Assembly: GCA_012729785.1 (NCBI GenBank)
Contig: JAAYCL010000044.1
Location: 1-64,000, forward strand
Direction of reading: 5' to 3'
DNA: 64,000 bases
From: Chlamydiota bacterium
GTDB lineage: Bacteria > Auribacterota > Tritonobacteria > UBA1439
The notes beneath the pieces are model-generated. The model was not told where the DNA came from and ran no database searches. It saw only the letters and a list, made by a program, of their open reading frames with translations. Positions 31,816 through 58,231 of this stretch are shown piece after piece. Position 1 is the stretch's first letter. Each line of letters begins with the position of its first letter. A program made the position numbers and the translations under genes.

Positions 31816-31844
31816 TTGAATCCAGCCTTGCCGTGCGGTATCAT
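31816..31844 (+). promoter_or_regulatory. Promoter of the GT2-methyltransferase gene, predicted leaderless
   Basis: TTGAAT, 17-base spacer, TATCAT, then six bases to the ATG at 31851. No ribosome binding site fits. The spacing matches the HD-GYP gene promoter at 12634 almost exactly. Confidence 0.68.
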
Positions 31845-31850
31845 GCCGCC

Positions 31851-37299: not shown

Positions 37300-40152
37300 A
37301 TGAGTCGCCCGGCCCCCGTCGAACAGAGCCCCGCCCCCGAGAAAGGGTACGTGACGATACGCCTGGACTGGTTCCGCGTCGTATTCGCCGCGATACTCGC
37401 CTTTACCGTCGTGACCCGTTTTTACGGCCTCTCCCTGAAACCGTTTCACCACGACGAGAGCCTCTACGCGACCTACTCCTGGTACCTGTTCGAGGGGAGG
37501 GGGTACAAGTACGACCCGATGATGCACGGCCCCTTCATGTTCTACCTCGACGCCCTCCTCTTCACCCTCTTCGGGGTCGGGGACTTCGTCGCCCGGATGG
37601 GCGCGGCGCTCTTCGGTGTGGGGCTCGTCTGGTGCGCCTGGCTGTTCCGAAAAGAGCTCGGGAAGGCGGGCGCCCTCTCGGCGGCCGCGCTCTTCGCGGT
37701 CTCCCCGACGTTCATGTACTTCTCCCGCTTCTTCCGCGAGGATGTCTTCGTCGCCTTCTGGGCCCTCCTCTCCGTGGGGCTCTTCGTGAATCGACTGCGT
37801 GCCGGCTCGAGGGGGTGGCTCTACGGGGCCTCGGCGGCCTTCTCCCTGATGTTCTGCGTCAAGGAGAACTCGTACATGTTCCTGGCCATCTTCGTTTCGT
37901 TCTGGGCTTTCATGCTCCTCTTCGAACGGTGCTTCGGGCGCGCCGCCCTCCCGGGAACGCCGTGCGCCGCGGGGGGGGGGCGCCGCCTCCTCGGCCTCCT
38001 CGACACCGTCGTGGCGCTCGGCATCTTCTTCGCGATCTTCTATCTGTTCTTCACCTCCTTTTTCCGCAACCCGCCCGGCTTCATCGACGGCCTCTACCGG
38101 AAGTCGCTCGGCTACTGGATGCACCAGGACAAGATCCAGCGCATCAAGGGCCCGTTCACCTACTTCTGCCCGATCGCCGCGACCTACGAGCTCCCCCTGC
38201 TGGCCGTCCTCTTCGCCGGCGTCGTCGCCACCCTCAGGCGCCATCGTCTCTCCCTCGCCGTCATGGCCGGTTCGAGCGCCGTCGCCCTTCCGCTGATGTG
38301 CCTCTGGAACCGGCCCCTGCCGGTCGCGTGGGACACGCTGTTCCACATGACGAGCACGCTCCACGTCGTCTTCGCCCTCTACGTGTTCGCCCTCGGGATG
38401 GCGGCCACCTGCACCTGCCTTCGGGAGGGGAGGCGCTTCGCCGCCTTCGTCTCCTACTGGAGCTGGACCAGCCTCCTGCTCTACTCGTACGCGGGGGAGA
38501 AGGTCCCCTGGCTCCTGATGCACGTGCTGATGCCGATGGTGCTCTGGGCGGGCGTCTTGTTGGGCGACTTCTTCGCCTCGGAGCGGTTCCGGCGGAACAC
38601 GAACGCGTACGCGGCGCTCCTCGGGGTCGGGCTCCTCCTCTTCCTGCAGGCCTCGCTCCGGCTCTGCTTCGTCAACGAGGCCAACCCGGTCGAGTGCATG
38701 GTCTACACCCAGACCTCCACGGACATCCAGAAGACGCTGCGGATCATCAACGCCCTCGCCGAGGAGACCGGGAAGGGGCTGCAGCTCCCGATCGGCATCC
38801 AGGGCGAGTCCACCTGGCCGTACACCTGGTACCTCCGCGACTACAAGGACTGGTTCCATCCGGGAACCTTCACCGCGCCGAGCAAGATGGTCGTGGCGGT
38901 GGACTGGGACAAGCGCCGGGACTTCAGCGCGGTCCTCGAGCCGCACTACCGGGAGACGCGGATGAAGCTCAGGGAGTGGTGGGTGCCGAGCCCGCTGGGC
39001 TCCCTGAAGAGCCCCGGGCCGGGGTGGGCCGAGCGCGTCTTCGGCCGGCGGCCGTTCTCGGTCTTCATCGCGGACTCCTCCCACCGGCTCCGGGCGCTGC
39101 TGCGGTACTACTTCAGCCGGCAGGTCTGGAGCGTCCTCGGCTCGCAGGATATCGCCTTCTACGTGCGGCGGGACCTCCTCGGCGAGGCGCCCGGCCCCGT
39201 TTCCGCCGCGGAGGCGCCGCAGGCGCCCGCGGTGGCCAAGGAGTATGCGGTGATCGGGACGACGTCCCCCGACGCCGTCTTCGGTGAGCGGGGAAGCGCC
39301 GCGGGCCGCTTCGACGAGCCTCGTGGCATCTGGGCGGACGCAACCGGTGCCATCTACGTCGCCGACACCAAGAATCACCGCTGGCAGAAGCTCGACGCGC
39401 AGGGGAAGCCCCTCCTCACGGTCGGGAAGCCGGGGAGCGGCCCCGCGGAGTTCAAGGAGCCGATGGGGATCGCCGTCGACGGCGACGGATTCGTCTACGT
39501 CGCCGACACCTGGAATCACCGCATCCAGAAGTTCGACCGGGAGGGGAGATTCGTCAAGGAGTGGGGCGGCGGCGCGGGCGGCTTCTGGGCTCCGAAAGGC
39601 ATGGCGTTCGACCGGGAGGGGAACCTGTACGTGGTCGATACGGGGCGGCACCGGGTCCAGAAGTTCACGTCCGGCGGCTCCTACCTGCTGCACTGGGGTG
39701 ACCAGGGGGAGGGGCCGGGAGAGTTCAGGGAACCGGTGGGGATCGTCGTGGTTTCAGGCGAAGCCGCCGCGGCGGCCGGCGACGATACGAAACAAACGCC
39801 CGGGGATGCGGTCCTGGTCGCCGATACCGCCAACAAGCGCGTGCAGAGATTCGACACGAAGGGGAGGTTCCTCGGGCAGTTCCGCGTCCTCGGGTGGGAG
39901 GAGTACTACACCGAGCCGTTCGCCGCGGCGGACTCCGCGGGAAGAATCTGGCTCACCGACAGCCGGAACAACCGCATCCAGATCTTCAGCCCCGACGGGG
40001 TGCTCCAGGCCCTCTGGTCGGCGAAGGGGTTCAAGCCGGGCGACTTCAACGTCCCGACCGGCATCTTCATCGCCGACGGACGCGTCTACGTCAGCGATAC
40101 CCACAACCACCGCGTGCAGGTGTTCGCCGAGAAACGGGTCTGCCGGAGGTAG
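37300..40152 (+). CDS. Agl23/TIGR03663-like membrane glycosyltransferase fused to an NHL propeller
   Basis: 950 aa. Residues 25-600 match the TIGR03663 pattern: FHHDESLYATYSWYLFEGRG, KYDPMMHGPFMFYLDALLF, MYFSRFFREDVFV and the later YSYAGEKVPWLLMH. The family is called flippase-associated Agl23 in archaea and looks like GT39. Residues about 650-950 are six NHL repeats (EPRGIWAD, VYVADTWNHRIQKF and others). One inter-blade loop carries an Ala-rich insert with a G10 run elsewhere in the gene (37971-37980). GGAGGAG precedes the ATG. The fusion parallels the giant gene at 18761. Confidence 0.86.
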   Translation: MSRPAPVEQSPAPEKGYVTIRLDWFRVVFAAILAFTVVTRFYGLSLKPFHHDESLYATYSWYLFEGRGYKYDPMMHGPFMFYLDALLFTLFGVGDFVARMGAALFGVGLVWCAWLFRKELGKAGALSAAALFAVSPTFMYFSRFFREDVFVAFWALLSVGLFVNRLRAGSRGWLYGASAAFSLMFCVKENSYMFLAIFVSFWAFMLLFERCFGRAALPGTPCAAGGGRRLLGLLDTVVALGIFFAIFYLFFTSFFRNPPGFIDGLYRKSLGYWMHQDKIQRIKGPFTYFCPIAATYELPLLAVLFAGVVATLRRHRLSLAVMAGSSAVALPLMCLWNRPLPVAWDTLFHMTSTLHVVFALYVFALGMAATCTCLREGRRFAAFVSYWSWTSLLLYSYAGEKVPWLLMHVLMPMVLWAGVLLGDFFASERFRRNTNAYAALLGVGLLLFLQASLRLCFVNEANPVECMVYTQTSTDIQKTLRIINALAEETGKGLQLPIGIQGESTWPYTWYLRDYKDWFHPGTFTAPSKMVVAVDWDKRRDFSAVLEPHYRETRMKLREWWVPSPLGSLKSPGPGWAERVFGRRPFSVFIADSSHRLRALLRYYFSRQVWSVLGSQDIAFYVRRDLLGEAPGPVSAAEAPQAPAVAKEYAVIGTTSPDAVFGERGSAAGRFDEPRGIWADATGAIYVADTKNHRWQKLDAQGKPLLTVGKPGSGPAEFKEPMGIAVDGDGFVYVADTWNHRIQKFDREGRFVKEWGGGAGGFWAPKGMAFDREGNLYVVDTGRHRVQKFTSGGSYLLHWGDQGEGPGEFREPVGIVVVSGEAAAAAGDDTKQTPGDAVLVADTANKRVQRFDTKGRFLGQFRVLGWEEYYTEPFAAADSAGRIWLTDSRNNRIQIFSPDGVLQALWSAKGFKPGDFNVPTGIFIADGRVYVSDTHNHRVQVFAEKRVCRR
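37971..37980 (+). repeat. G10 homopolymer inside a coding region
   Basis: Encodes Ala-Gly-Gly-Gly at residues 224-227 of the Agl23-like protein, in a loop between helices. A one-base slip would truncate the protein early. Confidence 0.8.
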
Positions 40153-40226
40153 GAGCGCCGCGCCCGTTTCCGCCGGCGAACGCGCAGCGCGGCGGGGCCC
40201 CTCCGGCCCGAAGGCGGATCGAAACC

Positions 40227-41978
40227 ATGACCGTAGTGCGCACCGTCGTTTTGGCGCAGCCGCCGCTCCCGGCGAACGAGCGACACAAGCGGGTGCTCCC
40301 CCTGGGGCTCGCCTACCTGGCCGCCTACGCCCGCGATCGAATCCCCGGGCTGCGCGTGCGGATCGTCGACGGCCAGGCGTGCAAGCTCACCGTCCCCCAG
40401 ATCGCCGAGCAGGTGCGGGCGGAGGATCCTGGGGTTGTCGGCATCACCTACTGGACCTGCCAGGCCCCCGCGGCGCACCTCCTCTCCCGGTTGCTCCGCG
40501 AGACGGCGCCGGGCGCCGCGATCGTGCACGGGGGGATCCATCCGACCATCTATCCCTCCGCGGCGCTCGAGACGGCGGACTACTGCATCATGCACGAGGG
40601 AGAGGAGACGTTCGTAGAGCTCCTCCGTCTGCTCGCCGGGGAGGGGCGGGGGCCTGAGGGGATCGCGGGCCTCGCCTGGAGGGACGGCCGGGAGCCGCGC
40701 GTCAACCCGCCGCGGCCGTTCATCGCCGACCTCGACGCGCTCCCGTTCCCCGCGTGGGATCTCCTGCCGATGGACCGGTACGACTCGCCGCTCCACGTTG
40801 TCGGCGGCCGGCGGCTCCCCATCGTCGGTTCCCGAGGCTGCCCCTACGGCTGCACCTACTGCGGCTCCCCCTTGATGTGGGGCCGCCGCGTCAGGTGGCG
40901 CAGCCCGGAAAACATCCTCGCCGAGATGAAGGCCGCGATCGCCGCGCTCGGCCTCACGCAGTTCCATTTCTGGGACGACAACCTGATGCTCGACCGCCGC
41001 CATGTCGAGCGGCTCTGCCGTCTGATCATCGAGGAGCGGCTCGCCGTGCGGTGGACCGGTCTGACGCGCGCCTCCCATATCGCGCGCAACGGGGATCTGA
41101 TGGGACTCCTGAAACAGGCAGGGTGCATCGGCCTGGAGGTGGGGATCGAGAGCGCGAACCCGGAGACGTTCTCGCAGATCGACAAAGACGAGGATTTGCA
41201 GGTCATCAGGGAGGTGGCGCACCTCCACAAGGCGCACGGGATGTCCCCCCTCTTCACCTACATGGCGTGCAACCCGGGGGAGACGATCTCCGGGTATTAC
41301 GCCCAGGCGCGGTTCATCGACGAGCTTGTCGCGGGGCTCCCGTGGTACGCGCACTTTCACCCGATGCCCTTCCCGCTCTACACGGGGCAGTTCGCGACCC
41401 CCCATATGGGGACGAAGCTCCACGACGAGGCGCCGAAGCTCGGGATGGTGCTGGCGGAGCGGCTCGAGGAGTACCACCACCATCGGATCAACTTCGTGCC
41501 GAACTCGCTCCTCGACGACATACCCGCCCGCAACATCCGGGCGCTCGACCTGTACCAGTACCGGCTCTGCCGTTACGCCCTCTGGTACTCCTTCTGGGAC
41601 GACTTCAACGCGGCGGTGCCCCGGGACCGGCAGCGGGAGACGCTGGCGCGGTACCGGGATTTTCTCTCCTTTTTCTGGAGACTGTGCGACGGCAGGAATA
41701 CCATCCGCCAAATCGCCGCCGCCGCCGGCCGCAGGGCGGGCGTGGAACCGCGGCAGGCGGTGCGGTTCGCCGCTTTTACGGCGCTCATCCTCGGGCAGAC
41801 CGGGGTGATCGTTTCGGCGATCCACGACGCGGGGAGGAGACGGCCGGTGGTTGCGGTGGCGACGCCGGCCCAGGTCGAGGGCTGCCTCACGCCGGCCGGG
41901 GGCGAGATGCCGCCCCCGTCCGCCGCGCGCCGGGTCGCCGACGAGGCCGTACGGCTCCTGCGGCGGTTTCTCGGATAG
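40227..41978 (+). CDS. B12-binding-type radical SAM enzyme
   Basis: 583 aa from the ATG at 40227. Residues 1-165 form the cobalamin-binding-like domain (LPLGLAYLAAYARD, GGIHPTIYPSAALE, MHEGEETFVELL). The Fe-S motif is SRGCPYGCTYCGSPL near residues 200-214. GLEVGIESANPETF and LFTYMACNPGETI follow. The 150-residue C-terminal tail (from about 420) has no family I know. It starts 74 bases after the Agl23-like gene. Reaction unknown; methylation of a glycan or lipid is a guess from context. Confidence 0.87.
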   Translation: MTVVRTVVLAQPPLPANERHKRVLPLGLAYLAAYARDRIPGLRVRIVDGQACKLTVPQIAEQVRAEDPGVVGITYWTCQAPAAHLLSRLLRETAPGAAIVHGGIHPTIYPSAALETADYCIMHEGEETFVELLRLLAGEGRGPEGIAGLAWRDGREPRVNPPRPFIADLDALPFPAWDLLPMDRYDSPLHVVGGRRLPIVGSRGCPYGCTYCGSPLMWGRRVRWRSPENILAEMKAAIAALGLTQFHFWDDNLMLDRRHVERLCRLIIEERLAVRWTGLTRASHIARNGDLMGLLKQAGCIGLEVGIESANPETFSQIDKDEDLQVIREVAHLHKAHGMSPLFTYMACNPGETISGYYAQARFIDELVAGLPWYAHFHPMPFPLYTGQFATPHMGTKLHDEAPKLGMVLAERLEEYHHHRINFVPNSLLDDIPARNIRALDLYQYRLCRYALWYSFWDDFNAAVPRDRQRETLARYRDFLSFFWRLCDGRNTIRQIAAAAGRRAGVEPRQAVRFAAFTALILGQTGVIVSAIHDAGRRRPVVAVATPAQVEGCLTPAGGEMPPPSAARRVADEAVRLLRRFLG

Positions 41979-42003
41979 GAATCGGGACAGAAGGGGGGGC
42001 GGG

Positions 42004-43035
42004 GTGGCGTCCTTGAAGAAGCTCTATCAGTACCACACCTATCGGGGGGCCTTCCAGCTCGTCAGGATGCTCGCGCCTGGATGCGGGGCGGAGCGCGGAG
42101 TGTGCACCGCAGGCCGCCCCCCCGACGGCGTATCGCCCTCCCGCGATTACCGCGCGATGCTTGTGCGCCTTATGCGGTTCAACCTCGCCTACGGGGCTGA
42201 GCGCCTCCAGCCCATCCACTACGTGCGGTATATCGAATACGCCCTCGCCGGGGCCCTCGCGGACATAGGGGAGGGGATGCGCGTGCTCGACGTGGGGAGC
42301 GGGGGATCGCTTCTCCCCGCTTTTCTGCTCTCCCTCGGGGCGACGGTGTACAGCACCGATATCGACGCCGGCGTGCGGTTTCAACCGAAGATATGCCGCC
42401 TCAACAAGTTGCTCCGGGAGAGGGATCTCGAGAGGCTGCGGGTCGAGATCAGGGACATGCGACGCACCGGCTATCCCGAAGGGTATTTCGACAGGGTGAT
42501 ACTGCTCTCGATGGTGGAGCATATCCACTACGGCGACGATTCCGTCGCGATGAAGGAAGCCGCGCGCATCCTCAAGCCCGGGGGAAAAATCTTTCTCACC
42601 TTCGATGTCGCACGGGACGCCCACGAGCTCATCTACCAGGGGCGCTACTATTATGGCTTCACCATGGACGACATCAGGGGGATACAGGACGAGGTGCGCA
42701 AGGATCCGTCGCGCCGCCTCCAGGAGGATTTCATTACGCTCAAGGAGGGATACAACCCAGGCTACACGCGCTTCTACAACGAACGCACGATGATGGAATC
42801 CCTCGTCGCCCCGTCGGGTCTGGAGCTCGTCGAACACGGTTATTTCGGGGACCACACCTTCGTGATCAGGGCCTTTTTCGACAGGAGGGGGATCGTCGAG
42901 TATCTCCACTGGATCCAGCCGATCCTCGCGTTGCTCATCTACCGAAGATACGCCGGTGCGAACGAGCTGAGCGAGAAGCCGGGCGCAATCGGGTACTGTG
43001 TCCTGCAAAAGCCGTCCGCGCCCCCCGGGGCATAG
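42004..43035 (+). CDS. SAM-dependent methyltransferase
   Basis: 343 aa from a GTG preceded by a G-rich ribosome binding site. The Rossmann core is MRVLDVGSGGSLLPAFLLSLG near residues 93-113, then STDIDAG, FDRVILLSMVEHIHYGDD and RILKPGGKIFLTFDV: a type-11-like methyltransferase. Residues 1-85 form a helical extension without a known family. It follows a radical SAM gene by 25 bases and precedes the Wzm/Wzt exporter genes. Wzt-type systems often end the chain with a methyl group, which makes this a candidate chain terminator, by analogy only. Confidence 0.82.
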   Translation: MASLKKLYQYHTYRGAFQLVRMLAPGCGAERGVCTAGRPPDGVSPSRDYRAMLVRLMRFNLAYGAERLQPIHYVRYIEYALAGALADIGEGMRVLDVGSGGSLLPAFLLSLGATVYSTDIDAGVRFQPKICRLNKLLRERDLERLRVEIRDMRRTGYPEGYFDRVILLSMVEHIHYGDDSVAMKEAARILKPGGKIFLTFDVARDAHELIYQGRYYYGFTMDDIRGIQDEVRKDPSRRLQEDFITLKEGYNPGYTRFYNERTMMESLVAPSGLELVEHGYFGDHTFVIRAFFDRRGIVEYLHWIQPILALLIYRRYAGANELSEKPGAIGYCVLQKPSAPPGA

Positions 43036-43098: not shown

Positions 43099-43959
43099 AT
43101 GTGCGTGAGGGCGCTCTCGCGGCTGAAGTCCCTGTGCACCGTGCACCGGGAACTGCTCTTCCACCTGGCGTTGAAGAACCTGAAGGTGCAGTACAAGTAC
43201 GCCTTCCTCGGATTCCTCTGGGCGTTCTTCGTGCCGCTCTGCATGGCGCTGGTCTTCTGGTTCCTCTTCGCCTTCCTCTGGCAGCGGCCGATACCGCCCC
43301 TCTCCATCGTGACGGCCCTCTTCGTCTGGCAGTTCGTCAATATGAGCATCGCGAGCTCCACGACCTCCATCATCGACAACGCGGGCCTGCTCAAGAAGGT
43401 CTACATCCCGCGGGAGATCGTCCCCCTTTCGATCGTGCTGTCGAACTTCATCAACTTCCTCCTGTCGCTCGTGGTGCTGGTCGTGCTGGTCCTGATCTAC
43501 ACCACCTTCAAGGCGGGTCACCCGATCCTCCCCGTACAGATCCTTTTGCTCCCCCCGCTGGTCGTGGTGACGTTCCTGATGACGTCGGGGTTCGTGCTGA
43601 TCACCTCGTCCCTCCAGGTGCTCTACCGGGACGTGAAGTACATCGTGGAGATCGCCCTCCTGATCATCTTCTATCTTTCCGGCGCCTTCTACGAGGTGGA
43701 CCTGATCGCCGCCGGCGCCGCCAGGAAAGGGATTCCGTGGCTCGTGCACCTGTTCATGTTGAACCCGATCTACGACCTGTTCGCGATGTACCGGATCGTC
43801 CTTCTTCCCTCCGCCATCTCGGAGATGACGGTGGACATCTCGCGGTACTACCCGGTCTGGCTTGTGGTCTCCCAGACCGTCGTGTTCAGCGTTCTCCTCT
43901 TCGTCGCCGCCTACCGGATGTTTCTGCGGAGGGAAGTCGACCTGGTCGACCTGATTTGA
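43099..43959 (+). CDS. ABC-2 type polysaccharide export permease (Wzm-like)
   Basis: 286 aa with six helices and the ABC2 membrane layout of TagG/KpsM/Wzm: a cytosolic amphipathic start (HLALKNLKVQYKYAFLGFLW), then IDNAGLLKKVYIPREIVPL and YRDVKYIVEIALLIIFYLSGAFY. It exports lipid-linked polysaccharide with the ATPase encoded four bases downstream. The AAGGGGG site is very close to the ATG at 43099; the GTG at 43105 has better spacing and may be the true start. Confidence 0.9.
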   Translation: MCVRALSRLKSLCTVHRELLFHLALKNLKVQYKYAFLGFLWAFFVPLCMALVFWFLFAFLWQRPIPPLSIVTALFVWQFVNMSIASSTTSIIDNAGLLKKVYIPREIVPLSIVLSNFINFLLSLVVLVVLVLIYTTFKAGHPILPVQILLLPPLVVVTFLMTSGFVLITSSLQVLYRDVKYIVEIALLIIFYLSGAFYEVDLIAAGAARKGIPWLVHLFMLNPIYDLFAMYRIVLLPSAISEMTVDISRYYPVWLVVSQTVVFSVLLFVAAYRMFLRREVDLVDLI

Positions 43960-43963
43960 CCCC

Positions 43964-46264
43964 ATGAGCCACAGTATTGAAGTCAAGAATCTCCGGAAGA
44001 AGTACCGGGTCTACTTCGAGAAGCCGGCGCTCATCCGCAACATCCTCCCGTTCCTCGTCTCCCAGGGGAAGGCGCAGGAGTTTTGGGCGCTGGACGGCGT
44101 ATCCTTCTCGATGCAGAAGGGGGAGTGCGTGGGGATCATCGGCCCCAACGGCTCGGGGAAGAGCACCATCCTGAGCATCCTCGCGGGGGTCTCCGCGCCC
44201 ACGGAGGGCGAGGTCTCGATCAGCGGGAGGGTTTCCTCGCTCCTCTCGCTGGGAGCCGGGTTCAACTTCGAGCTCACCGGGCAGGAGAACGTCTACCTGA
44301 ACGGCGCCATCCTCGGCCTCTCGAAAACGCAGATCGACGCCATCTACGACGACATCGTGGCGTACGCCGACCTCGGGAGGTTCATGAACGCCAAGCTCTC
44401 GACCTACTCCTCGGGGATGAACATGCGCCTGGGCTTCGCCATCGCCGTGATGGTGCCGTTCGACGTCCTCTTGATGGACGAGATCCTCGCCGTCGGCGAC
44501 CTCTCCTTCCAGACGAAATGCTTCCGGACGATGCGGAAGTTCTGGGAGGACGAGGGAAAGACGGTCATCTTCGTCTCTCACGACCTCGTCAAGATCGAGG
44601 AGATCTGCTCGAGCGTCCTCTGGTTCGAGCACGGCAAAATCGAGGCGATGGGCGCGCCGGAGGAGGTCATCGAGGCGTACCGGGAGCGCTACCGTGAGAA
44701 GCTCGCGCTCGGCCCCGCGGTGAAGCGGCAGGCGCGCGCCGAGGTCCCGGTGCTCGTGACCGTGGACGCCGCGAGGGAGCTCCGGCGGATCCCGGAGACG
44801 ATCTTCGGAAGCAACGTCGACATCTTCAGCGACGGGTGCATCGTGTATGACGGGAAGCGGCGGCAGGCAAACCGGATGGCCCACGCATGGATCGCGCCGC
44901 TCGGTTTCACATTGTTCAGATACCCCGGGATGTTCCATGCGGACTATTTTCACTGGCGTGAGGCGGTCGGCGAGGAGCGCCTCCCGCAGGTGTGCGGCAC
45001 CTCCTCCTCGAAATCCACGCTGCCGCCCACCTTCGGCCCCGCGGAGTTCCTCGATATGTGCACCACGCTCGCCGCGGCGCCGATGGTCACGCTGAACGCG
45101 GGGACGGGCACAGCGGAGGAGGCGGCGGCATGGGTCTCGTGGATCCGGGAGCGTTACCGGGGGCCGCTCCACCTCGAAATCGGGCACGAGCTCTACTACG
45201 ACGAGTTCCATCCCCTCGGGGCCGACTTCCCCTGGACTCCCGCTCGCTACGCGGGAGCCGTGGAGGAGTTCTCGCGCGCCGTGCGGGCAGTGGACGGCGA
45301 GGCGAGGATCGGCGCGCAGTGCTGCATCGAGAACGGGGCGTTCACGCGTTACCGCGACCCCCGCTGGAACGAGGCGCTCCTCGCGCTCCCACCAGGAACG
45401 TTCGATTTCCTCTCTCTGCACCACGCCTCCCTCCCCATCCTGAACATCACCGGAGACTACCGCACCCCCGCCGACGCCGAGACCTACGGTACGCTTCTCG
45501 CAGCCCCGGCCTTCGTCGAGGCGAGCCTGGCGGCGCTGGCGGCGCAGGCGGCGCGCGCGGGCCGGGCCGGCATCCCCATCGCCCTGAGCGAGTACGGCTG
45601 CTTCTTCACGAGCGTGCCGAACATCGTCCACGGGACCCACGCGGTGCACGACCGCTGCTCCGACTCGGTGGAGTGGGGGAGGAACCACACGCTCGCCGCC
45701 GCCCTATACGAGGCAGGCGTCCTCCACGCCTGCCTCAGGCGGCCGGAGGTGCAGATCGCGGCGCGCATGACCCTCTTCCATACGCTCTTCTCCAGTGTGG
45801 CGGACTTGCGTCGCCAAGCCCGCCACCCGCAGTACCTCGTGCACGAACTTCTCGACAGATTCGCGGGCAAGACGCTGGTCCCCTCGCGGGTGGAGACGAA
45901 GCGGATCGCGACCCCGGCGCTGGGCTTCGTGCCGGCGCTGCGCGATCTCCCGATCTGCGAGGCGGTGGCGGTGAAGGATGCCGGAGGGGGAAAGATCGCC
46001 CTCTCCCTGATCAACCGCAGCCTGGACAGTCCCATCAGCGTCCGGCTCGACCTGAACGGCTTCGCGGCGCGCTTCTGCACCGTCAGGACCGTCTCCGCCG
46101 AGAGCCCGGAGTGCGACCACACCCTCCCCGGCCCCGGCCAGGTGGCGATGGGGCAGCAGACCTATCGCACGGAGGGGATGCGGGGAGGGGACGGGTTGCT
46201 GCGCTATCTCCTTCCGCGGCACTCGCTGAGCGTGATCTCCTTTTCCGACGAGGACTGGATCTGA
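43964..46264 (+). CDS. Wzt-like ABC ATPase fused to a GH51-like glycoside hydrolase module
   Basis: 766 aa, one frame. Residues 1-245 are the ATPase: Walker A GPNGSGKST, signature YSSGMNMRL, Walker B VLLMDEILAVGD, and HDLVKIEEI. After a short linker, residues 265-766 follow the alpha-L-arabinofuranosidase (GH51) plan: IPETIFGSNVDIFSDG, LFRYPGMFHADYFHWREAVG, EFLDMCTTLAAAP and LNAGTGTAEEAAAWVSW. The acid/base Glu is Glu409 but in EIGHEL rather than the usual GNE. The nucleophile is Glu543 in ALSEYG. A C-terminal beta-sandwich (ALSLINRSLDSPISVRLDL, LLPRHSLSVISFS) completes it. Normal Wzt proteins carry a small jelly roll here. It may read or trim the glycan during export. Confidence 0.85.
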   Translation: MSHSIEVKNLRKKYRVYFEKPALIRNILPFLVSQGKAQEFWALDGVSFSMQKGECVGIIGPNGSGKSTILSILAGVSAPTEGEVSISGRVSSLLSLGAGFNFELTGQENVYLNGAILGLSKTQIDAIYDDIVAYADLGRFMNAKLSTYSSGMNMRLGFAIAVMVPFDVLLMDEILAVGDLSFQTKCFRTMRKFWEDEGKTVIFVSHDLVKIEEICSSVLWFEHGKIEAMGAPEEVIEAYRERYREKLALGPAVKRQARAEVPVLVTVDAARELRRIPETIFGSNVDIFSDGCIVYDGKRRQANRMAHAWIAPLGFTLFRYPGMFHADYFHWREAVGEERLPQVCGTSSSKSTLPPTFGPAEFLDMCTTLAAAPMVTLNAGTGTAEEAAAWVSWIRERYRGPLHLEIGHELYYDEFHPLGADFPWTPARYAGAVEEFSRAVRAVDGEARIGAQCCIENGAFTRYRDPRWNEALLALPPGTFDFLSLHHASLPILNITGDYRTPADAETYGTLLAAPAFVEASLAALAAQAARAGRAGIPIALSEYGCFFTSVPNIVHGTHAVHDRCSDSVEWGRNHTLAAALYEAGVLHACLRRPEVQIAARMTLFHTLFSSVADLRRQARHPQYLVHELLDRFAGKTLVPSRVETKRIATPALGFVPALRDLPICEAVAVKDAGGGKIALSLINRSLDSPISVRLDLNGFAARFCTVRTVSAESPECDHTLPGPGQVAMGQQTYRTEGMRGGDGLLRYLLPRHSLSVISFSDEDWI

Positions 46265-46298: not shown

Positions 46299-47516
46299 AT
46301 GGACCATCGCGACGAACATCGGCTCGCAGGGATAACCGGCGGGTCCCGCGCCCTCTGCGGGCCCGAACAGATCCATCTCGATCTCACCAACGCGTGCACA
46401 CTGCGCTGCCTCTGCTGCTGGCACCGCTCGCCGCTCCTTGCCGCAGGGGATATTCCCCCCCACTGGTCGCCGGACCACCGTCTCTCGTACGAGACGGCCC
46501 TCGGCGTCATCGAGGACGCGGCGGCGATGGGGGTTCGGCGGATCATATTCAGCGGCGGGGGCGACCCCCTCTGCCACCCCCGCACGATGGACCTGCTCCG
46601 GGCCGCGGCGGAGAGGGGGCTGGAGACCACCCTCATCACCAACCTCGTTGTCGCCGGGGCGGAGACGATCCGAACGCTTGTCGAGGCGCGCCTCGGCAGG
46701 CTGGCGGTGAGTCTGTGGGCCGGCGACGAAAAGACGTACGCCGTGATGCATCCGGGCGCGTCTTTCGGGACCTTCGGGAGGATCGTGGGGCTGCTCCGGG
46801 GCCTCGGGGCCCCCCTCCCTCCGGGACGCGGGCCGCAGCTCATCCTGACGCACGTGCTGTGCGCGCGCAACGCCGGGAATATCGAGGCGATGGTGCGCCT
46901 TGCCGTGGAGCTCGGCGCGGGCCAGATCTGGTTCCAGCCGACGGATGTGGAGACGCCGCGTCTGAAGCCGCTCCTGCTGGGCCGGGCGGAGATCGCGGCC
47001 GTCGTCGCGTCGCTCGAAAACTGCGCCGCACGGTTCCGCCCCCTCCTGCGGCCCGGGCAGGAGGGGCTTCTCGACTTCAGCCTGCTCCTCGGAAAGCTTT
47101 CCAACAGCAGGGCCCACGAAGGGGTCTTCCACTCCGACGTGATCGACACGATGCCCTGCTACATGGGTTGGTACGAGAGCCGGATACTCGCCAACGGCGA
47201 CGTGGTTCCGTGCTGCAAGGCGGACCGTCTTCCGCTCGGTTCTGTGCGCGAGCGGCGCTTCCGCGACATATGGTTCTCGCCTGCGTACGACGAGTTCCGG
47301 AGGCGGGCGCTGACCCTCTCCAAGTCGGACCCGTACTTCGCGAAGATCCGGTGCGGGAAGTTCTGCGACGACTGGTGGCTGAATGCCATCGTCCACCGGT
47401 CGTACCTCGGCAGCCGCGCGCGGCCCGGCGGGAGGGACCGGCGCGGGCCGGCCAAACGGATCCTCTCCGCGTTTCTCAAACTGGCGGGTCGGCGGGGCGG
47501 GGAGGGGGGGGCGTGA
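46299..47516 (+). CDS. Radical SAM/SPASM enzyme
   Basis: 405 aa. The N-terminal Fe-S motif is NACTLRCLCCWHRSP near residues 31-45, with GGGDPLCHP after it. The C-terminal SPASM region holds NGDVVPCCKADRLPLGSV and RCGKFCDDWW. SPASM enzymes modify peptides, proteins or sugars, and several act in glycan or lipid gene clusters. It starts 34 bases after the exporter ATPase and overlaps the next GT4 gene by four bases. A second SPASM enzyme is at 60403. Confidence 0.88.
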   Translation: MDHRDEHRLAGITGGSRALCGPEQIHLDLTNACTLRCLCCWHRSPLLAAGDIPPHWSPDHRLSYETALGVIEDAAAMGVRRIIFSGGGDPLCHPRTMDLLRAAAERGLETTLITNLVVAGAETIRTLVEARLGRLAVSLWAGDEKTYAVMHPGASFGTFGRIVGLLRGLGAPLPPGRGPQLILTHVLCARNAGNIEAMVRLAVELGAGQIWFQPTDVETPRLKPLLLGRAEIAAVVASLENCAARFRPLLRPGQEGLLDFSLLLGKLSNSRAHEGVFHSDVIDTMPCYMGWYESRILANGDVVPCCKADRLPLGSVRERRFRDIWFSPAYDEFRRRALTLSKSDPYFAKIRCGKFCDDWWLNAIVHRSYLGSRARPGGRDRRGPAKRILSAFLKLAGRRGGEGGA

Positions 47517-48658
47517 AGGTCGTCTTCATCGGGCTCAGCGGCTATGACCATCCGTACGTGCGGGTGCGCTGCCACAACTTCGCGAAGCTGCTCAGGGAAC
47601 GGGGGGTCGAGGCGGAGGTGCTCTCCTTCAAGGAGGCATTCTCCCCCTCGGTCGCGGACGACGGGATGCTCCGCCTCCGCGACCCGCAGAAGCTCGGGCA
47701 GACCCTGAGGGCGCTGTGCCGGCTGGCGGGGAAGCGGCGGGCGATCCTTTACGTTCAGAAGGCGCACTGGCATGCGGCGGCGCCGTTCATCCTCCGGAGG
47801 TTGCGGCTCAACCGGTTCGTCCTCGACTACGACGATTGGGATCTCGACCGGTCGCCGTTCTTCGACCGGAAGCGGATGAACCGGCTGCTGTTCGGGGCCG
47901 ACGGCGTGGAGCCGATCACGCGGCGGGTGGCCGCCGCGGCGGACGCGGTGGTGGCGTCCAGCGGGCCTCTCCTCGAGCTCATGCGGCGGTACAACCCCGC
48001 CGCGTTTCTCGTCCCGACCGGCGTCGACGAGAAGAGGTTCAGGAGGACGGGACCTCCCCCCGAAGGCCCCGTCACCGCGGTCTGGTGCGGGAAGGTATGG
48101 GGGCGAGTGATCTACGAGAACCTCCGTTTTTGCGTCGACTGCGTGCTCGATGCGCGGCGCGTCCATCCGTCCCTGCGGTTTGTCGTCGCCGGGGACGGCG
48201 CGTGGATGGGGAGGATCGAAGAGTATGTCCGGGAGCGGGGCGCGGGCGGTGTCGAGTTCGCCGGATGGATACACCCCGACCGGATGTCCGATTTCCTCTC
48301 GCGGGCGCACATAGGGCTCCTCCCGCTGGTCCCCGACGCCGAAAACTCCGATTGGATGCGGTGCAAGAGCCCGACAAAGCTTTTCGAGTACATGGCCATG
48401 GAGATCCCCACCGTGGCCAGCAGGTACGGGGAGGCGGTATCCATCGTCGCCGACGGGCAGGAGGCGTTCCTCGCCTCGGAGAGGGGGGAGTTCGCCGCGA
48501 AGCTGGCCGCGCTCGCCGGGGACGCGGGCCTCAGGCGAGCGATGGGCTCGCGGGCTCGGCGAAGGGTGGAGGAGAGATACTGCCATCGGGTGATGGGGGA
48601 CGCCCTGCTGGAGGCGGTCGAGTGCGCGGCCGGCCTCCGCGGTCGCCTCGGAGGCTGA
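47513..48658 (+). CDS. GT4-family glycosyltransferase
   Basis: 381 aa from a GTG overlapping the previous stop. GT-B features: VVFIGLSGYDHPYVRVRCHN, LDYDDWDLDRSPFF, VASSGPLLELMRRYNP and the sugar-donor site SPTKLFEYMAMEIPTVAS, which holds the second Glu of the EX7E motif. The unusual DDWD segment in the acceptor domain is seen in several GT4 relatives. It is cytosolic and probably adds a sugar to the glycan exported by the adjacent ABC system. Confidence 0.88.
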   Translation: MKVVFIGLSGYDHPYVRVRCHNFAKLLRERGVEAEVLSFKEAFSPSVADDGMLRLRDPQKLGQTLRALCRLAGKRRAILYVQKAHWHAAAPFILRRLRLNRFVLDYDDWDLDRSPFFDRKRMNRLLFGADGVEPITRRVAAAADAVVASSGPLLELMRRYNPAAFLVPTGVDEKRFRRTGPPPEGPVTAVWCGKVWGRVIYENLRFCVDCVLDARRVHPSLRFVVAGDGAWMGRIEEYVRERGAGGVEFAGWIHPDRMSDFLSRAHIGLLPLVPDAENSDWMRCKSPTKLFEYMAMEIPTVASRYGEAVSIVADGQEAFLASERGEFAAKLAALAGDAGLRRAMGSRARRRVEERYCHRVMGDALLEAVECAAGLRGRLGG

Positions 48659-48694: not shown

Positions 48695-48735
48695 CCGCTC
48701 GTGCATGGCGGCGGCCCGCGCAAGGGGGGGCAGGA

Positions 48736-50298
48736 GTGAAAAGTCCGCGTGAACATGACGCAGTCTCGCCGGGCGGCCGCGGAACCGCACTGACGCTCTG
48801 CATCTGTTGCCTGCTGGTCGCGTACGGAAGTTTCTTTATCCTGCTCGACTATCTCCAACCGTTTGCCGGCGTGTGGCGCAATCCGATCTCGGTGGAAACG
48901 CTCACCTTTGCGCAGACGGGGAAGAACCTCGCGCGAGGCAGAGGGTTCACCACCGAGTGGATCCTCCCCGCAGCCCTGCGCTACGCGCAATCCTTGGCGC
49001 GGGTGCCCGATCTGTATAATCCGCCACTTTACCCGGCCCTTCTCGGGGTCTTCTTTGCCGTGTTCGGCGTTCATTTCCACTCCATACTCCTCTGCACGGG
49101 GGTGTTGTTTCTGGCAACCGGGGTGTGCATCTATTTCTTCGCACGAGACGCATTCGGTCCCTATGCGGCGATAGCCGCGGCGGCACTCTTCCTCTCCAGC
49201 GCGCCGATGCGCTGGTACGTCATCAAGGGCGAGAACATAGCCCTGCTGGTGTTGTTAATGACGCTGCTGTTCTGGAAACTCTACAAAAGCCGGATGAGCG
49301 CCCCGCGGGACGCCATGCTGATCGGCGCGCTGGCCGGCATGTGCTATCTCACCGCGTACCCGTACTGGGTCCTGCTGCTTCCCCTCTGCGCCTCCTGCCT
49401 CGCCTCTTCCGGGGAGCGGAGGGGCGGGAACGTCCTTGCGTTGCTCGGCGGATTCTGCGCCGTCTCGGCGTGCTGGTGGCTCCGCAACGCCATCGTCACG
49501 GGGAATCCGTTCTTCACGCTCCGCCTGGGGGCCGGGATATACGGAAAGGCGTTCACATCCGCGCTCGAGTCGGTCCTCAAGAGCGTTGGGGACGTGCTCG
49601 CCCCGGGGGCCCGGATAAGAAACCTGCGATGGCAATCCGGCACCCTGGTCACGATGTACGGCAACTGGCTGATCGTTCTCCTCATCGCCGCCGCCTTTTG
49701 GAAATGCGATGACGCGCGGATGCAGTGGACGCGGCGGGTGCTGTACGTTTCCTGGGCGGCGATCTGGATCCTCGTGGGAAGCTGGACGTCTGTCATCGGT
49801 CCCCTGGCGGCCCTCCCGTTCCTGCCCCTCGCGTGTATCATCGTATCGGGTTTCATGTTCCGCATCGCGACTGCGGTAAACCTTCGGCGCGTTTCCATCT
49901 GTATCGCCATCACGGCGGCACTGGTCGTCGTCAACACCGCTCCCCTCCCGTTCTGGATCTACCAGGGGGCGGCGCCCTACGAATGGCCCGCCAGCGCCTA
50001 CCTCGACACGGTCCCGAAAGAAAAGGTCTTCTTCTCCGACATGGCGCTGCAAATCGCGTGGCTCAAGGACAGGCCGGCGGTCGAGATGCCGATGGATGCC
50101 GGGGAGTGCGCGAAGGTCGCCTCGATGGCTCCCGGTGGCGTGGCGGTGTACATGTCCCAGGACTTCGGCGACGAGTACGGGGCCTCCTCGGCCTTCTGGC
50201 TCGGGATCCACGCCGCGGCGCGAAACGGCGTTCTGAGCCGCACCTTGCCGGCGCGACGCGGGGAGTTGTTCGGGGACGGGGAATACCTCTTCTACTGA
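48736..50298 (+). CDS. GT39-like polytopic membrane protein
   Basis: 520 aa from a GTG. The order of helices and loops matches GT-C enzymes: a first loop GRGFTTEWILPAALRYAQ, then LYNPPLYPALLGVFFAVFG, about ten helices to residue 420 and a soluble tail (YLDTVPKEKVFFSDM). The usual Asp-Glu pair of the first loop is not evident (ISVETLTFA occurs there), so catalytic competence is uncertain. Its DNA is visibly less GC-rich than the genes before it. The next gene begins 31 bases downstream. Confidence 0.72.
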   Translation: MKSPREHDAVSPGGRGTALTLCICCLLVAYGSFFILLDYLQPFAGVWRNPISVETLTFAQTGKNLARGRGFTTEWILPAALRYAQSLARVPDLYNPPLYPALLGVFFAVFGVHFHSILLCTGVLFLATGVCIYFFARDAFGPYAAIAAAALFLSSAPMRWYVIKGENIALLVLLMTLLFWKLYKSRMSAPRDAMLIGALAGMCYLTAYPYWVLLLPLCASCLASSGERRGGNVLALLGGFCAVSACWWLRNAIVTGNPFFTLRLGAGIYGKAFTSALESVLKSVGDVLAPGARIRNLRWQSGTLVTMYGNWLIVLLIAAAFWKCDDARMQWTRRVLYVSWAAIWILVGSWTSVIGPLAALPFLPLACIIVSGFMFRIATAVNLRRVSICIAITAALVVVNTAPLPFWIYQGAAPYEWPASAYLDTVPKEKVFFSDMALQIAWLKDRPAVEMPMDAGECAKVASMAPGGVAVYMSQDFGDEYGASSAFWLGIHAAARNGVLSRTLPARRGELFGDGEYLFY

Positions 50299-52151: not shown

Positions 52152-52189
52152 CGCGCGGATCAGGACCGCCCCATCGGGAGAAGGCATCC

Positions 52190-54268
52190 GTGAACCGCCT
52201 GAGCATCTATCTCCTTTTCCTTGTCCTCGGCTTCGTCGCGGCGTTGGCCGTGCGGATCTCCTTCACCGACGACCTGTCGGGGATGGACCTCTCCTGCGGC
52301 AACTACGACGGGATGGAGTACCACTGGCTCGCCAAGAATCTTTGCCGGGGCAGGGGCCTGCGCACCTTCTCGGAGGGCGGGTTCGACTATCGACTGCTCC
52401 GCCCCCCGGGCTACCCGCTCTTCATCGCCGCGGTGTACTGCATCTCGGGGATGCAATTCCTCCACCTCAGGATCGCGGACGCCGTGCTCTCCGCCCTCAG
52501 CGCCGTTCTGGCCGCGCTCATCGCGCGCGAGCTCGCAGGGAGGAAGGCCGCCTGCATCGCCCTTCTCCTCGCGGCGCTCTACCGCCCGGCGGCCTTCTTC
52601 GCCACGCGCATCTTCTCGGAGAACCTCTTTTGCTTCCTGATGCTGCTCTCCCTCCTGCTCCTGATCCGCCGCGGGAACAGGCCGTGGGCATGCCTCATCG
52701 CGGGGGCGCTGTCGGGCGGGCTTGTGTTGACGAGGCCGGTGTGGCTCGGGGTGTTCCCATTCGTTCTCGCGTGGGTCGCCGCGGCGCGGGGCCGGCGGAT
52801 CGTGCGGTCGGCGTGCCTCCTGCTCGGCCTTGCGGCGGCGACGGCGCCGTGGGCGGCCTACTGCCGCCTGACGCTCGGCATGCCGGTTTCCCCTGTCATC
52901 TTCTCGTCGTTGCGGGGCCTGTACAACACCTGGCTGGCCTACAACCCCGAGGCGGGCGATTTCACGCAGCGAGGGCCCGAGGAGGGGCGGGAACTGGAGC
53001 ACGAGTGGGCGCAGTTGATGGCCCTTCGATTCAGGTATTGGCGGATGCCGGAGGCGGAGTACCTGGCGGCCGTCTCCGCGGAGACGTCGCGTTTCTTCCG
53101 GGCGGATCCGCGGCGGTGCCTCTCGCTCGGCGTGAAGAGGGTGTACCGCGCGTGGCTCGGTTCCGGCCTGCTTGACGGCCAGGGCACCGTCCTCCCCGAC
53201 ACGGGTGAGAATCCGTACGGGATCATATACTGGAAGAGACGGATCTTCGATCCGGCCGTGTACCTCGGCGACACGGAGATCATCGAGCAGCTCCCGTTCA
53301 GCAGGGAACTCCGCATCCTCGGCGTCCGCGTCCCGCTGCTCTCCTTCGAAGGGGCATTCTACCTCATGGCCCTCGCCCTCCTCGCCTGCGCGGCGCTCAA
53401 TGCGCGGCATCTCGCGGGGAAGACAGGAGAGGCGGTGCGAAGGTATTCCCTCTTCGTGCTGGTTGCCGCGGGGTACACGGCCGCCAACACGATCTCCGTC
53501 ACCATGCAGCGATTTCGCTTCCCGCTGGAATACCTTATGATCGTCGTCGCCGGGGCGGGGATCGCCTGCGCGCTCTCGCCGCTCTTCCGCTTTGTATGCG
53601 CGGGGCTTCGAACCCTCGGATTCCGGATCGCCGGCGAGCCGGAAGGCCCCCCCCGTCGGTTGGCGTGTCGAGTCGCGCCGAACGCAGCCCTGCTCGCCGG
53701 GGCGGCCGTCGCGGCGGCGCTCGCCGCGAGGTGCTCGTGGAATCTTCACGGTTTCCGCGAGGCGGTGAGGGCGCAGTGCGCCGTGCGCGTTTCGGATGCC
53801 GACATCGAGGCCCGGATGGGTCGGGGCGCGCGGGAGGGGGGAGGCGGGCCGGGGTACAGGGAGGTCTGGAAGCGGCAGGTGGAGGGCGCCGGAAACCTCG
53901 GCGGGATATTGGGAAAGGAGATCCTATGGCGGGGCGAGGCCACGTGGATTAACCCCCCCTCCCGGGCCGATTTCCAGGGCGAATACTACCTCCGTTCGGC
54001 GCAGGCGAGGTTCGTGTCGGAGATGGAGAACCCCGGCTTCTTCATGCTGATCGTGGATTCCTACCGCGACCCAGACTCCATCGGCTCGGGAAGGGCGGTC
54101 GTCGTTGCGCCCGGTGGAACGGTCGAACGGCTTGCGGAGGGGGACCACATAGCCGTGCTCGGCAGGCTCGGGGGCACCGATTTTGTCGAGGGATCGATCA
54201 TCGTATGCGCCGAGGAGATTCTTGTTTTGAGCGGAGGGCGCGCGCCACTCGGAGGGGAGCGCGGGTAG
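52190..54268 (+). CDS. GT39/PMT-like membrane glycosyltransferase with soluble C-terminal domain
   Basis: 692 aa from a GTG. The first periplasmic loop has NYDGMEYHWLAKNLCRGRGL and LLRPPGYPLFIAAVY, the ordinary start of many bacterial GT39-like enzymes. About eleven helices extend to residue 520, including VTMQRFRFPLEYLMIV. Residues about 540-692 form a soluble tail with GTVERLAEGDHIAVLGRLGG, which looks like a small OB-like domain. The next gene starts one base after the stop, so the two are one transcript. Acceptor and sugar unknown. Confidence 0.78.
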   Translation: MNRLSIYLLFLVLGFVAALAVRISFTDDLSGMDLSCGNYDGMEYHWLAKNLCRGRGLRTFSEGGFDYRLLRPPGYPLFIAAVYCISGMQFLHLRIADAVLSALSAVLAALIARELAGRKAACIALLLAALYRPAAFFATRIFSENLFCFLMLLSLLLLIRRGNRPWACLIAGALSGGLVLTRPVWLGVFPFVLAWVAAARGRRIVRSACLLLGLAAATAPWAAYCRLTLGMPVSPVIFSSLRGLYNTWLAYNPEAGDFTQRGPEEGRELEHEWAQLMALRFRYWRMPEAEYLAAVSAETSRFFRADPRRCLSLGVKRVYRAWLGSGLLDGQGTVLPDTGENPYGIIYWKRRIFDPAVYLGDTEIIEQLPFSRELRILGVRVPLLSFEGAFYLMALALLACAALNARHLAGKTGEAVRRYSLFVLVAAGYTAANTISVTMQRFRFPLEYLMIVVAGAGIACALSPLFRFVCAGLRTLGFRIAGEPEGPPRRLACRVAPNAALLAGAAVAAALAARCSWNLHGFREAVRAQCAVRVSDADIEARMGRGAREGGGGPGYREVWKRQVEGAGNLGGILGKEILWRGEATWINPPSRADFQGEYYLRSAQARFVSEMENPGFFMLIVDSYRDPDSIGSGRAVVVAPGGTVERLAEGDHIAVLGRLGGTDFVEGSIIVCAEEILVLSGGRAPLGGERG

Positions 54269-54269
54269 T

Positions 54270-56438
54270 ATGAACACGACAGCGAGAAGACACGCATGCC
54301 TCCTCCTCCTCCTCGTTCTGGTGGTGCTGTGCCATGCCCTCTGCAATTGGCGCTACCTCGCCGGCGATCTCTATCCCCAGCAGAAGGACGTTGCGGCGCA
54401 CCTCAAGGTGTGCACGAAGTATCTCCTCCAGTCGAGGGACGCGATCCGCAGCGGCGCACCCCTGCTGGAGCGCTTCACGAGACTCGCCTCGCTCTTCCAC
54501 CAGGAGAGCATACCGGTGGAGCACATATGGATTTGGCCCCGTCTTACCTACGTGGTGACCGCGCCAGCTGCGGCCATCTGGGGTCTGACGCCGCGGGTGA
54601 TCATCCTCTCGAACATCGTCTGGCTTGCGGTACTGCTCCTGTCGGTTTTCTCCATCGGATCGCGGTGCATGAGCCCCGAAGCGGGATTCATGGCGGCGCT
54701 CATCACCTCGTTGTTTCCCGCGACCTACGGCCTCTCAAGGAATTACGGTCTCGACTTCTCCCTGATGGGGATTGCCGCGCTCGCCGTCTACTGGCTTATC
54801 AGGACGGAGGCCTTTTCCCGGAGGGCTCCGTCGATCGTCTTCGGTTGCGTGTTCGGCATCGGGCTTCTGGTGAAGGTGCAGCTTCTCATCTTCCTCTGCG
54901 GCCCGCTCCTCTTCGCGCTCGTGTGCGGGTGGCGTCGGTCGCGCGATCGGGGGATCACCGCCGGGAGGGTGTTCGCGAACGTCGCGCTCGCGGGTCTCGC
55001 CGCGCTGCTTCTCTCGATTCCATTCTGGTGGGGAAACATCGACAACATCGCGGCGGTGTTCATCCGGCACGCCGAGGCGCGCGACGGCATCGACCCGCAC
55101 CACCTCTCCGTGCCCGTGATGAGCGCCCGATACTTCGCATACTACCTCGTGGCGGCGATCGTCTACGTTTCGCCGCCGCTGTTCGCGCTCGGGGTTCTGC
55201 TCCTCCCGGTGTTCATCCTCTCCCGCTTCAAGGCGAGGGCGGTCGTACTCCTCTGGGCTCTTGTGCCGTACGCGATGTTCACCCTCATCGAGTTGAAGTA
55301 CTCCGTATTCTATCTGTCGAGCCTCCCCGCGGTCGGCGTGGTCATCGGTGCGGGGCTCGCGTCCCTCAGGACGAGGGCGCTGAAGTACTTTCTGTGTGCC
55401 GCCGCCGCTGGGTGGGGCCTCATCCACTTTCTGCAACTCTCGTTCGCCGTTGGCCCTCCGCCATACAGAGGTTGCAGGCCGTATTCGAGCGATGCTTTGC
55501 GTGCGGACGGCTACCCCGTTTGGGCGCACCCGGCCTTCCCCAACAACCTGGAGAGGGTCGCGCGGAGGTTTATCGAAGAGATCGGCTCCCACGAACGAGG
55601 GAACAGGTATGTGCGGATCGGCGTCTGCGAATTCGAGTATTCGAACAAGGATTACCTGCTCGTCGACTCGCTCGAATACTTCATGGAGTCGGTGAATCCC
55701 GCTGTCTATGTGTTCCGGAGCCACTTTTCAACCGACTCGTTCCTGGAGTGCATGGACAGTTTCAACTACCTCGTTGTCCTGGAGGAGGGAGACAAGCCTA
55801 TGCCGGACTTCCGGCGGTTTGAGGAGTACTTCAGCAACGGCAGCGGCGCCTCTCTCTGCGCGAAGTATCTGAATGGTCCCGCGACCCTCGCGCGACTCAT
55901 CGAGAGCTACCGAAGGTACGAACTCCTCGACCGCGAGCTATTGTACCCTGACGGCGTCAGCGCGTTCCTGATGCGAAAGCCCCCCTTCCCCGTGGAGGAC
56001 GACGCCGTCATCCCCGCCGCGCATCTGGTGAGCGCCAACGTCTTCATCGCCTGGCCCCGGATCGGCGTGGACGAACGGCTGCGGCGCCCTCCGACGATCG
56101 GCGACTACGACGTCCTCTTCCCGTACGACCTCGAGTTCCCGCTCGTGCCGCCCGCCCGCCGGGACCCGTCCGAGCCCTACTTCGCCCGGTACCGCCTCTC
56201 CTTTGAGCGGGGAGGGACGTACGCGCTTTCCATCAAACTCAAGGATCGGGAGGCGTCGCCTCCTCGTGCCTCCGTGAACGGGAAGCCCGTCATCGGACGC
56301 CATCCGCGGGAAGCGAACGGCGGGATGAAGCGCATCGGATCGTTCCGCGTTCAGGCGGGGGTGGGCGAGGTGGAGCTCCTCGGGGACGAGTATTTTTCCG
56401 TCACAGAGCAGCTTCGAATCACGAGGGAGGGGGAGTAG
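54270..56438 (+). CDS. GT39-like polytopic membrane protein with large soluble domain
   Basis: 722 aa. About twelve helices in residues 8-400. The early loop YPQQKDVAAHLKVCTKYLL has a Lys-Asp-His pattern rather than Asp-Glu. Then LSRNYGLDFSLMGIAALAVYWL and LVKVQLLIFLCGPLLF follow the GT39 pattern of other bacterial members. Residues about 410-722 are extracytoplasmic, ending in a beta-rich part (RYRLSFERGGTYALSIKLKD). It begins one base after the preceding stop. Convergent with the gene at 56475. Confidence 0.72.
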   Translation: MNTTARRHACLLLLLVLVVLCHALCNWRYLAGDLYPQQKDVAAHLKVCTKYLLQSRDAIRSGAPLLERFTRLASLFHQESIPVEHIWIWPRLTYVVTAPAAAIWGLTPRVIILSNIVWLAVLLLSVFSIGSRCMSPEAGFMAALITSLFPATYGLSRNYGLDFSLMGIAALAVYWLIRTEAFSRRAPSIVFGCVFGIGLLVKVQLLIFLCGPLLFALVCGWRRSRDRGITAGRVFANVALAGLAALLLSIPFWWGNIDNIAAVFIRHAEARDGIDPHHLSVPVMSARYFAYYLVAAIVYVSPPLFALGVLLLPVFILSRFKARAVVLLWALVPYAMFTLIELKYSVFYLSSLPAVGVVIGAGLASLRTRALKYFLCAAAAGWGLIHFLQLSFAVGPPPYRGCRPYSSDALRADGYPVWAHPAFPNNLERVARRFIEEIGSHERGNRYVRIGVCEFEYSNKDYLLVDSLEYFMESVNPAVYVFRSHFSTDSFLECMDSFNYLVVLEEGDKPMPDFRRFEEYFSNGSGASLCAKYLNGPATLARLIESYRRYELLDRELLYPDGVSAFLMRKPPFPVEDDAVIPAAHLVSANVFIAWPRIGVDERLRRPPTIGDYDVLFPYDLEFPLVPPARRDPSEPYFARYRLSFERGGTYALSIKLKDREASPPRASVNGKPVIGRHPREANGGMKRIGSFRVQAGVGEVELLGDEYFSVTEQLRITREGE

Positions 56439-58184: not shown

Positions 58185-58216
58185 GGGCCGGGTCAATGGC
58201 TGCGGTTGCGGCCCGA

Positions 58217-58225
58217 TGGTATACT
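58217..58225 (+). promoter_or_regulatory. Extended -10 promoter of the gene at 58232, predicted leaderless
   Basis: TGG-TATACT, then six bases (GTTCGC) and the ATG. There is no ribosome binding site. Confidence 0.65.
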
Positions 58226-58231
58226 GTTCGC

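Follow-up and report, generated by a model that had tools for sequence, protein, structure and literature searches.

Known Wzt-type exporters check glycan completion by means of a small jelly-roll domain that reads the end of the chain, and this domain (Wzt_C, PF14524) is found in many, though not all, Wzt proteins. In TagH, the ATPase of the teichoic acid exporter, the ATPase is followed by a membrane helix and an extracytoplasmic tail. The C-terminal domain of the A. aeolicus Wzt binds the 3-O-methylated end of the chain and forms a glycan-binding pocket together with the ATPase, and capped O antigens are not exported by transporters without this domain (PMC9445017). A glycosidase-type module is also needed for polysaccharide export in the case of PgaB, whose C-terminal domain was first described as binding PNAG and as critical for export, and was subsequently reported to act as a hydrolase (PMC5933820).

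We compared these systems to a gene in the window, i.e., the whole 64,000-nucleotide stretch of contig JAAYCL010000044.1 that was analyzed. A first-pass annotation had described this gene as encoding a Wzt-type ATPase with a whole GH51-type module replacing the Wzt_C jelly roll, and both profile searches and predicted folds bear this description out. The gene product resembles the Wzt proteins that carry Wzt_C (A. aeolicus, E. coli O9a) in being a Wzt-type ATPase encoded beside a Wzm-type permease and in having a cytoplasmic, carbohydrate-type domain at the C-terminus of the ATPase. In contrast to their jelly roll of ~140 residues, the fusion has a GH51-type barrel and sandwich of ~500 residues. 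We consider it probable that this protein serves a Wzm/Wzt-type glycan exporter as its ATPase subunit, and that the substrate-recognition domain of this exporter is an exapted GH51-type glycosidase which does not cut.

A single open frame joins a Wzt-type ATPase to a GH51-like module

The fused gene (43964..46264; this and all other features given here lie on the + strand) is one continuous open frame of 766 aa, as the first-pass annotation had proposed, and Pfam, PDB, and fold matches were obtained for both of its halves. Its ATG lies 4 nt past the stop codon of the gene for a 286-aa Wzm-type permease (43099..43959), which was assigned through Pfam ABC2_membrane (E 2.5e-11) and which also matches the NCBIfam galactan export permease with E 1.2e-18, under the cut-off of that model. 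The Wzt-type nucleotide-binding domain (residues 4-248, 43973..44707) was placed with Pfam ABC_tran, which matches residues 43-174 of the window protein with E 7e-20, and by comparison of its model to the A. aeolicus Wzt (7k2t_A). This half contains a Walker A motif (GPNGSGKST), a signature motif (YSSGMNMRLG), a Walker B motif (VLLMDE), and an H-loop (VSHD), as well as the Wzt-like LLSLGAGFNFELTGQEN.

The best NCBIfam match of the ATPase half is TagH/TarH, with E 2e-65. However, the fusion scores 221.5 against the 538-bit equivalog cut-off of that model, and it differs from TagH/TarH in having no membrane segment after the ATPase. Hydropathy analysis of the six fusions compared in this work showed that none has a hydrophobic stretch at residues 235-300, nor is there a membrane segment in the short linker (residues 249-258, 44708..44737), a region of low model confidence. 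As no membrane segment separates the ATPase from the module, the module would be cytoplasmic, in agreement with the first-pass annotation, and a TagH-type topology with an extracytoplasmic tail is ruled out.

The C-terminal half consists of a GH51-like (beta/alpha)8 barrel (residues 259-633, 44738..45862), delimited from a model of the module and from T. maritima GH51 3ug3_C, and of the C-terminal beta-sandwich of the GH51 plan (residues 634-766, 45863..46261), delimited from Pfam Alpha-L-AF_C and from DSSP of the models. The Alpha-L-AF_C profile matches residues 560-754 (E 1.5e-6, 29 bits against a cut-off of 27 bits) and exceeds its cut-off in all six fusions, so that ABC_tran and Alpha-L-AF_C, the profiles which the first-pass annotation had pointed to, both match the one protein. 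Among PDB sequences, GH51 arabinofuranosidases are matched by the C-terminal half with E 1e-15 and by a profile of six homologues with E 9e-46. NCBIfam adds a match to the arabinosylfuranosidase ArfA (E 8.7e-12, under the model's 625-bit cut-off). No match to PF14524 was obtained in the fused protein at E up to 1, and the PF14524 hits of this bacterial class lie elsewhere. The LNAGTGT motif, His408, Glu409, and Glu543 were all found at the positions that the first-pass annotation had given.

That annotation had named a frameshift or misassembly at the joint (about 44,700-44,780) as a possible source of error. Such an artifact is ruled out by the presence of one open frame in each of six genomes and by an even codon bias, with a third-codon-position GC of 0.86-0.97 along the whole gene, joint included.

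Predicted structures of the fused protein

The models, which were built from five sequences and have low confidence in the cleft loops, assign both halves of the protein to the folds expected from the profile searches. The C-terminal module modeled alone (pTM 0.85) matches T. maritima GH51 3ug3_C with Z 33.0 over 418 residues at 2.6 A and 22% identity. Its best 22 structural matches are all GH51-type arabinofuranosidases (Z 30-33), and the next match is the beta-glucuronidase/heparanase (GH79) group at Z 27. The ATPase model matches the A. aeolicus Wzt (7k2t_A) with Z 29.6 over 232 residues at 2.8 A and 40% identity. In the full-length model, residues 4-248 correspond to the A. aeolicus Wzt and residues 262-762 to GH51, and the stretch between them includes residues 247-258, at which the pLDDT falls below 50. 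With a GH51-like module standing in place of the Wzt C-terminal domain and no membrane segment separating it from the ATPase, we infer that the module acts as a reader of the glycan end.

The fusion recurs in Candidatus Tritonobacteria within a conserved cassette

Seven genomes of the class Candidatus Tritonobacteria (phylum Ca. Auribacterota), to which Tritonobacter belongs, were compared, and six of them carry the fusion as a single frame of 766-794 aa. Two members of this set of six sequences are congeneric, and four of the fusion contigs come from separate samples, including Candidatus Tritonobacter lacicola and one Ca. Auribacterota. The remaining genome (G005, 83% complete) lacks both the fusion and any gene closely resembling the radical SAM/SPASM gene described below, either truly or because its assembly is incomplete. 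The other fused ATPases share 60-81% identity with that of the window, whereas the next ATPase in the phylum, an ordinary frame of ~400 aa, is about 48-49% identical to it, a gap which sets the fused ATPases apart as one distinct exporter lineage. Genes bearing Wzt_C are present at other places in six of the seven class genomes, the exception being G006; as such, the fusion exporter would in most genomes be an additional, dedicated one and not a replacement of the common exporter. The fused gene is the sole Alpha-L-AF_C match in each of the six fusion genomes, and no stand-alone GH51 of the Alpha-L-AF_C kind was found in them.

A collection-wide scan for close relatives, which relied on two short peptides as patterns and would be expected to overlook more distant fusions, returned only four loci, from the same genomes as G001, G002, G003, and G006. 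No fusions were seen in three small phyla, for which just 1-3 genomes were searched. The long Wzt frames of the phylum (L077-L082) were considered as further enzyme fusions and rejected, since by eye they are ordinary Wzt proteins with beta-type tails. Three of these, L077, L079, and L081, are Wzt proteins of ~570 aa with an extra beta-type tail beyond the usual C-terminal domain, an arrangement that is frequent in other families of the phylum.

The first-pass annotation had asked whether the fusion recurs beside Wzm-type permeases, and this is the case: the Wzm gene is adjacent to the fusion in all six genomes. Downstream, a radical SAM/SPASM enzyme (46299..47516) and a GT4-type glycosyltransferase (47513..48658, start codon approximate), both identified with Pfam, each lie near the fusion in 6/6, such that Wzm, the fused Wzt, GT4, and radical SAM/SPASM are found together in every fusion genome. 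Upstream of Wzm lie a SAM methyltransferase (42001..43035, start approximate; Pfam Methyltransf_11), with a cassette homologue in three of the six genomes, and a B12-binding radical SAM enzyme (40203..41978, start approximate; Pfam), with a homologue close upstream of Wzm in five. Further glycosyltransferases surround the cassette in the window.

The GH51 catalytic set has decayed across the fusions

Nine conserved active-site residues have been described for GH51 (Glu29, Arg69, Asn74, Asn174, Glu175, His244, Tyr246, Glu294, and Gln351), and a change of Glu to Gln at either catalytic position abolishes the activity of a characterized GH51 enzyme (PMC4666033). We aligned the six fusions, given here in the order G000, G001, G003, G004, G002, G006, to these positions. 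The equivalents of Arg69, Glu175, and His244 are R, E, and H throughout, so that three of the nine residues are kept in all six fusions, and four are kept in the window protein. Elsewhere the set is altered, with D, D, D, D, D, C at Glu29; F, Y, V, Q, H, R at Asn74; A, A, S, A, A, T at Tyr246; and T, G, S, S, F, F at Gln351. Asn174, which precedes the acid/base Glu, is replaced by His in all six (His408-Glu409 in the window protein, 45185..45190), and the position of the nucleophile Glu294 (Glu543 in the window protein, 45590..45592) reads E, E, Q, E, D, F. In contrast, Asn174, Glu175, and Glu294 are kept in 21 of the 21 free-standing frames compared, a count that includes a few duplicates of the same gene. 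The GHE of the fusions was equated with the GNE of GH51 from the alignment and from sister proteins; one alignment slid T. maritima, L007, and L008 at this acid/base motif. The module thus shares with the GH51 alpha-L-arabinofuranosidases (T. maritima 3ug3/3ug4) its whole fold together with the acid/base Glu and the Arg69 and His244 equivalents, and it differs from them in being joined to an ABC ATPase, in having His for Asn, in its unconserved nucleophile, and in the loss of furanose-binding residues.

These residues bear directly on whether the module could be an active cytoplasmic glycosidase which trims or proofreads the lipid-linked chain before export. The window protein retains both Glu409 and Glu543 at the right positions and could therefore be active even if its relatives are inactive, and the invariant Arg69, Glu175, and His244 equivalents would suit an enzyme as well. 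However, three of the six relatives have Q, D, or F at the nucleophile position despite the same core gene order, and, given that one of these (G003) has the very Gln that abolishes GH51 activity, GH51 catalysis cannot be a requirement for the function of the fusion family as a whole. The His found in place of Asn in all six and the loss of the Asn74, Tyr246, and Gln351 positions likewise argue against a retaining alpha-L-arabinofuranosidase activity, and a cytoplasmic cleavage of the chain to be exported would serve no purpose unless its specificity were tight. We regard an active glycosidase as unlikely, and we keep it in consideration because of the precedent of PgaB, an export-linked module once taken to be binding-only, although PgaB is periplasmic, belongs to another export system, has no ATPase fusion, and is reported to be catalytically active. 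The first-pass suggestion that the module trims or remodels a furanose chain is not upheld by these residues, and its suggestion of an arabinose specificity found no support. The decay of the catalytic set across the fusions instead favors the alternative that the same annotation had offered for His408, namely a binding-only role.

New invariant residues on the cleft face

All six fusions share Arg339, Gln342, His408, His416, Asn574, and Arg601, which are rare in stand-alone relatives and GH51. Glu409 and Tyr411 are also invariant in the six, as is Asp327, which is shared with the secreted sisters of the module as well, and one such sister (L084) shares Arg339, Gln342, and Asn574 with the fusions. 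Of the positions in the beta-to-alpha (cleft) loops, 28/171 are invariant, compared to 2/33 in the opposite loops and 18/116 in the helices; given the figure for the helices, the excess in the cleft loops is modest. Taken together, the new invariant residues and those of the cleft loops fit a putative ligand site that is maintained, not one that is decaying.

A module that serves as a scaffold, docking the GT4 and radical SAM enzymes of the cassette to the exporter with no glycan binding of its own, would be consistent with the conservation of these neighboring enzymes alongside the fusion in all six genomes. Nevertheless, the difference between cleft loops and opposite loops, modest as it is, suggests a ligand cleft, and we find a scaffold very unlikely. 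New catalytic chemistry, e.g., a chain-end modification that would use Glu409 with His408 or His416 and no GH51 nucleophile, is the least likely of the readings weighed here, for while Glu409, His408, Tyr411, His416, Arg601, and Asn574 are invariant in six of six and several are fusion-specific, no known enzyme with such a residue set was found, and a binding site would equally give this invariance.

Origin of the module

The nearest relatives of the module that were found, L083-L088, came from another phylum, 291 genomes of which were searched with the profile of the module; they scored 278-302 bits, above any GH51. They differ from the fusions in having no ATPase, in having N-termini that by eye resemble signal peptides or lipoprotein signals, and in keeping the catalytic Asn, acid/base, and nucleophile in all six; five of them have an extra N-terminal domain. 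The seven strongest module matches of that phylum (L083-L089) were rejected as fusions, as none has an ATPase part, and among the weaker matches only L090 was examined. These seven form a secreted-looking GH51-type group that resembles the fusion module more closely than it does GH51, and the extra N-terminal domain present in most of them has no Pfam match.

The tree groups the six fusions in one clade (99/98) that lies among the secreted-looking relatives, next to L084, with moderate branch support inside the clade (79-87 at the forks that matter). Because this clade sits among relatives that keep the nucleophile, the fusion was probably followed by about three separate losses of this residue, a parsimony count that applies to this tree alone with its moderate support. 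The simplest history suggested by these sequences is that a secreted-type glycosidase was fused once to the ATPase, that Asn was replaced by His on the stem branch, and that the nucleophile then disappeared on three occasions.

Proposed role of the fused exporter

With the module as a non-cutting recognition domain, the ATPase dimer would drive the neighboring Wzm permease, as expected from the family, and a GH51-like module would hang from the C-terminus of each ATPase on the cytoplasmic side, as the jelly roll does in known Wzt. The rebuilt cleft of the module would bind a lipid-linked glycan by its end, once this is finished or modified, without cutting it, and the bound glycan would then be admitted to the channel, such that the state of its end or modification is read and its export licensed. 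The SAM methyltransferase upstream of Wzm (42001..43035) is a candidate for an enzyme that methylates the chain end, and, at a guess, this methyltransferase and the radical SAM neighbors could make the mark that the module reads. On balance, we lean towards a dedicated exporter common to the whole class Ca. Tritonobacteria, in which a decommissioned glycosidase with a rebuilt cleft would license a surface glycan and which would represent a second, independent solution to recognition by Wzt.

Term searches of the open-access literature, with most subscription journals outside their scope, found no description of a Wzt that carries a glycosidase domain, although the survey of modules linked to Wzt by Mann et al. 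2019 (Glycobiology, doi 10.1093/glycob/cwz066) might already describe such an architecture. The fusion suggests that a complete glycosidase fold can take over from the jelly-roll reader. The residues E, Q, D, and F found at the nucleophile position after the fusion provide a natural series for testing how a cutter turns into a reader. The fusion also marks a surface-glycan locus that is conserved in a little-known uncultured lineage, known here from metagenome-assembled genomes alone.

Other genes in the window

Several other genes of the window were noted in passing. A frame of 950 aa at 37300-40152 combines a PMT_2-type membrane glycosyltransferase with an NHL beta-propeller, and its homologues adjoin the same exporter cassette in G001 and G004. 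A fusion of a GT2 glycosyltransferase to a methyltransferase is encoded at 31833-33224, with a homologue in G004 that is 74% identical. Three clustered genes encode PMT_2-type membrane glycosyltransferases (48733-50298, 52187-54268, and 54270-56438), with an SGNH hydrolase gene between them. Finally, the gene at 58196-60433 encodes an ADP-ribosylglycohydrolase domain (residues 57-336) together with ~400 residues that have no Pfam match.
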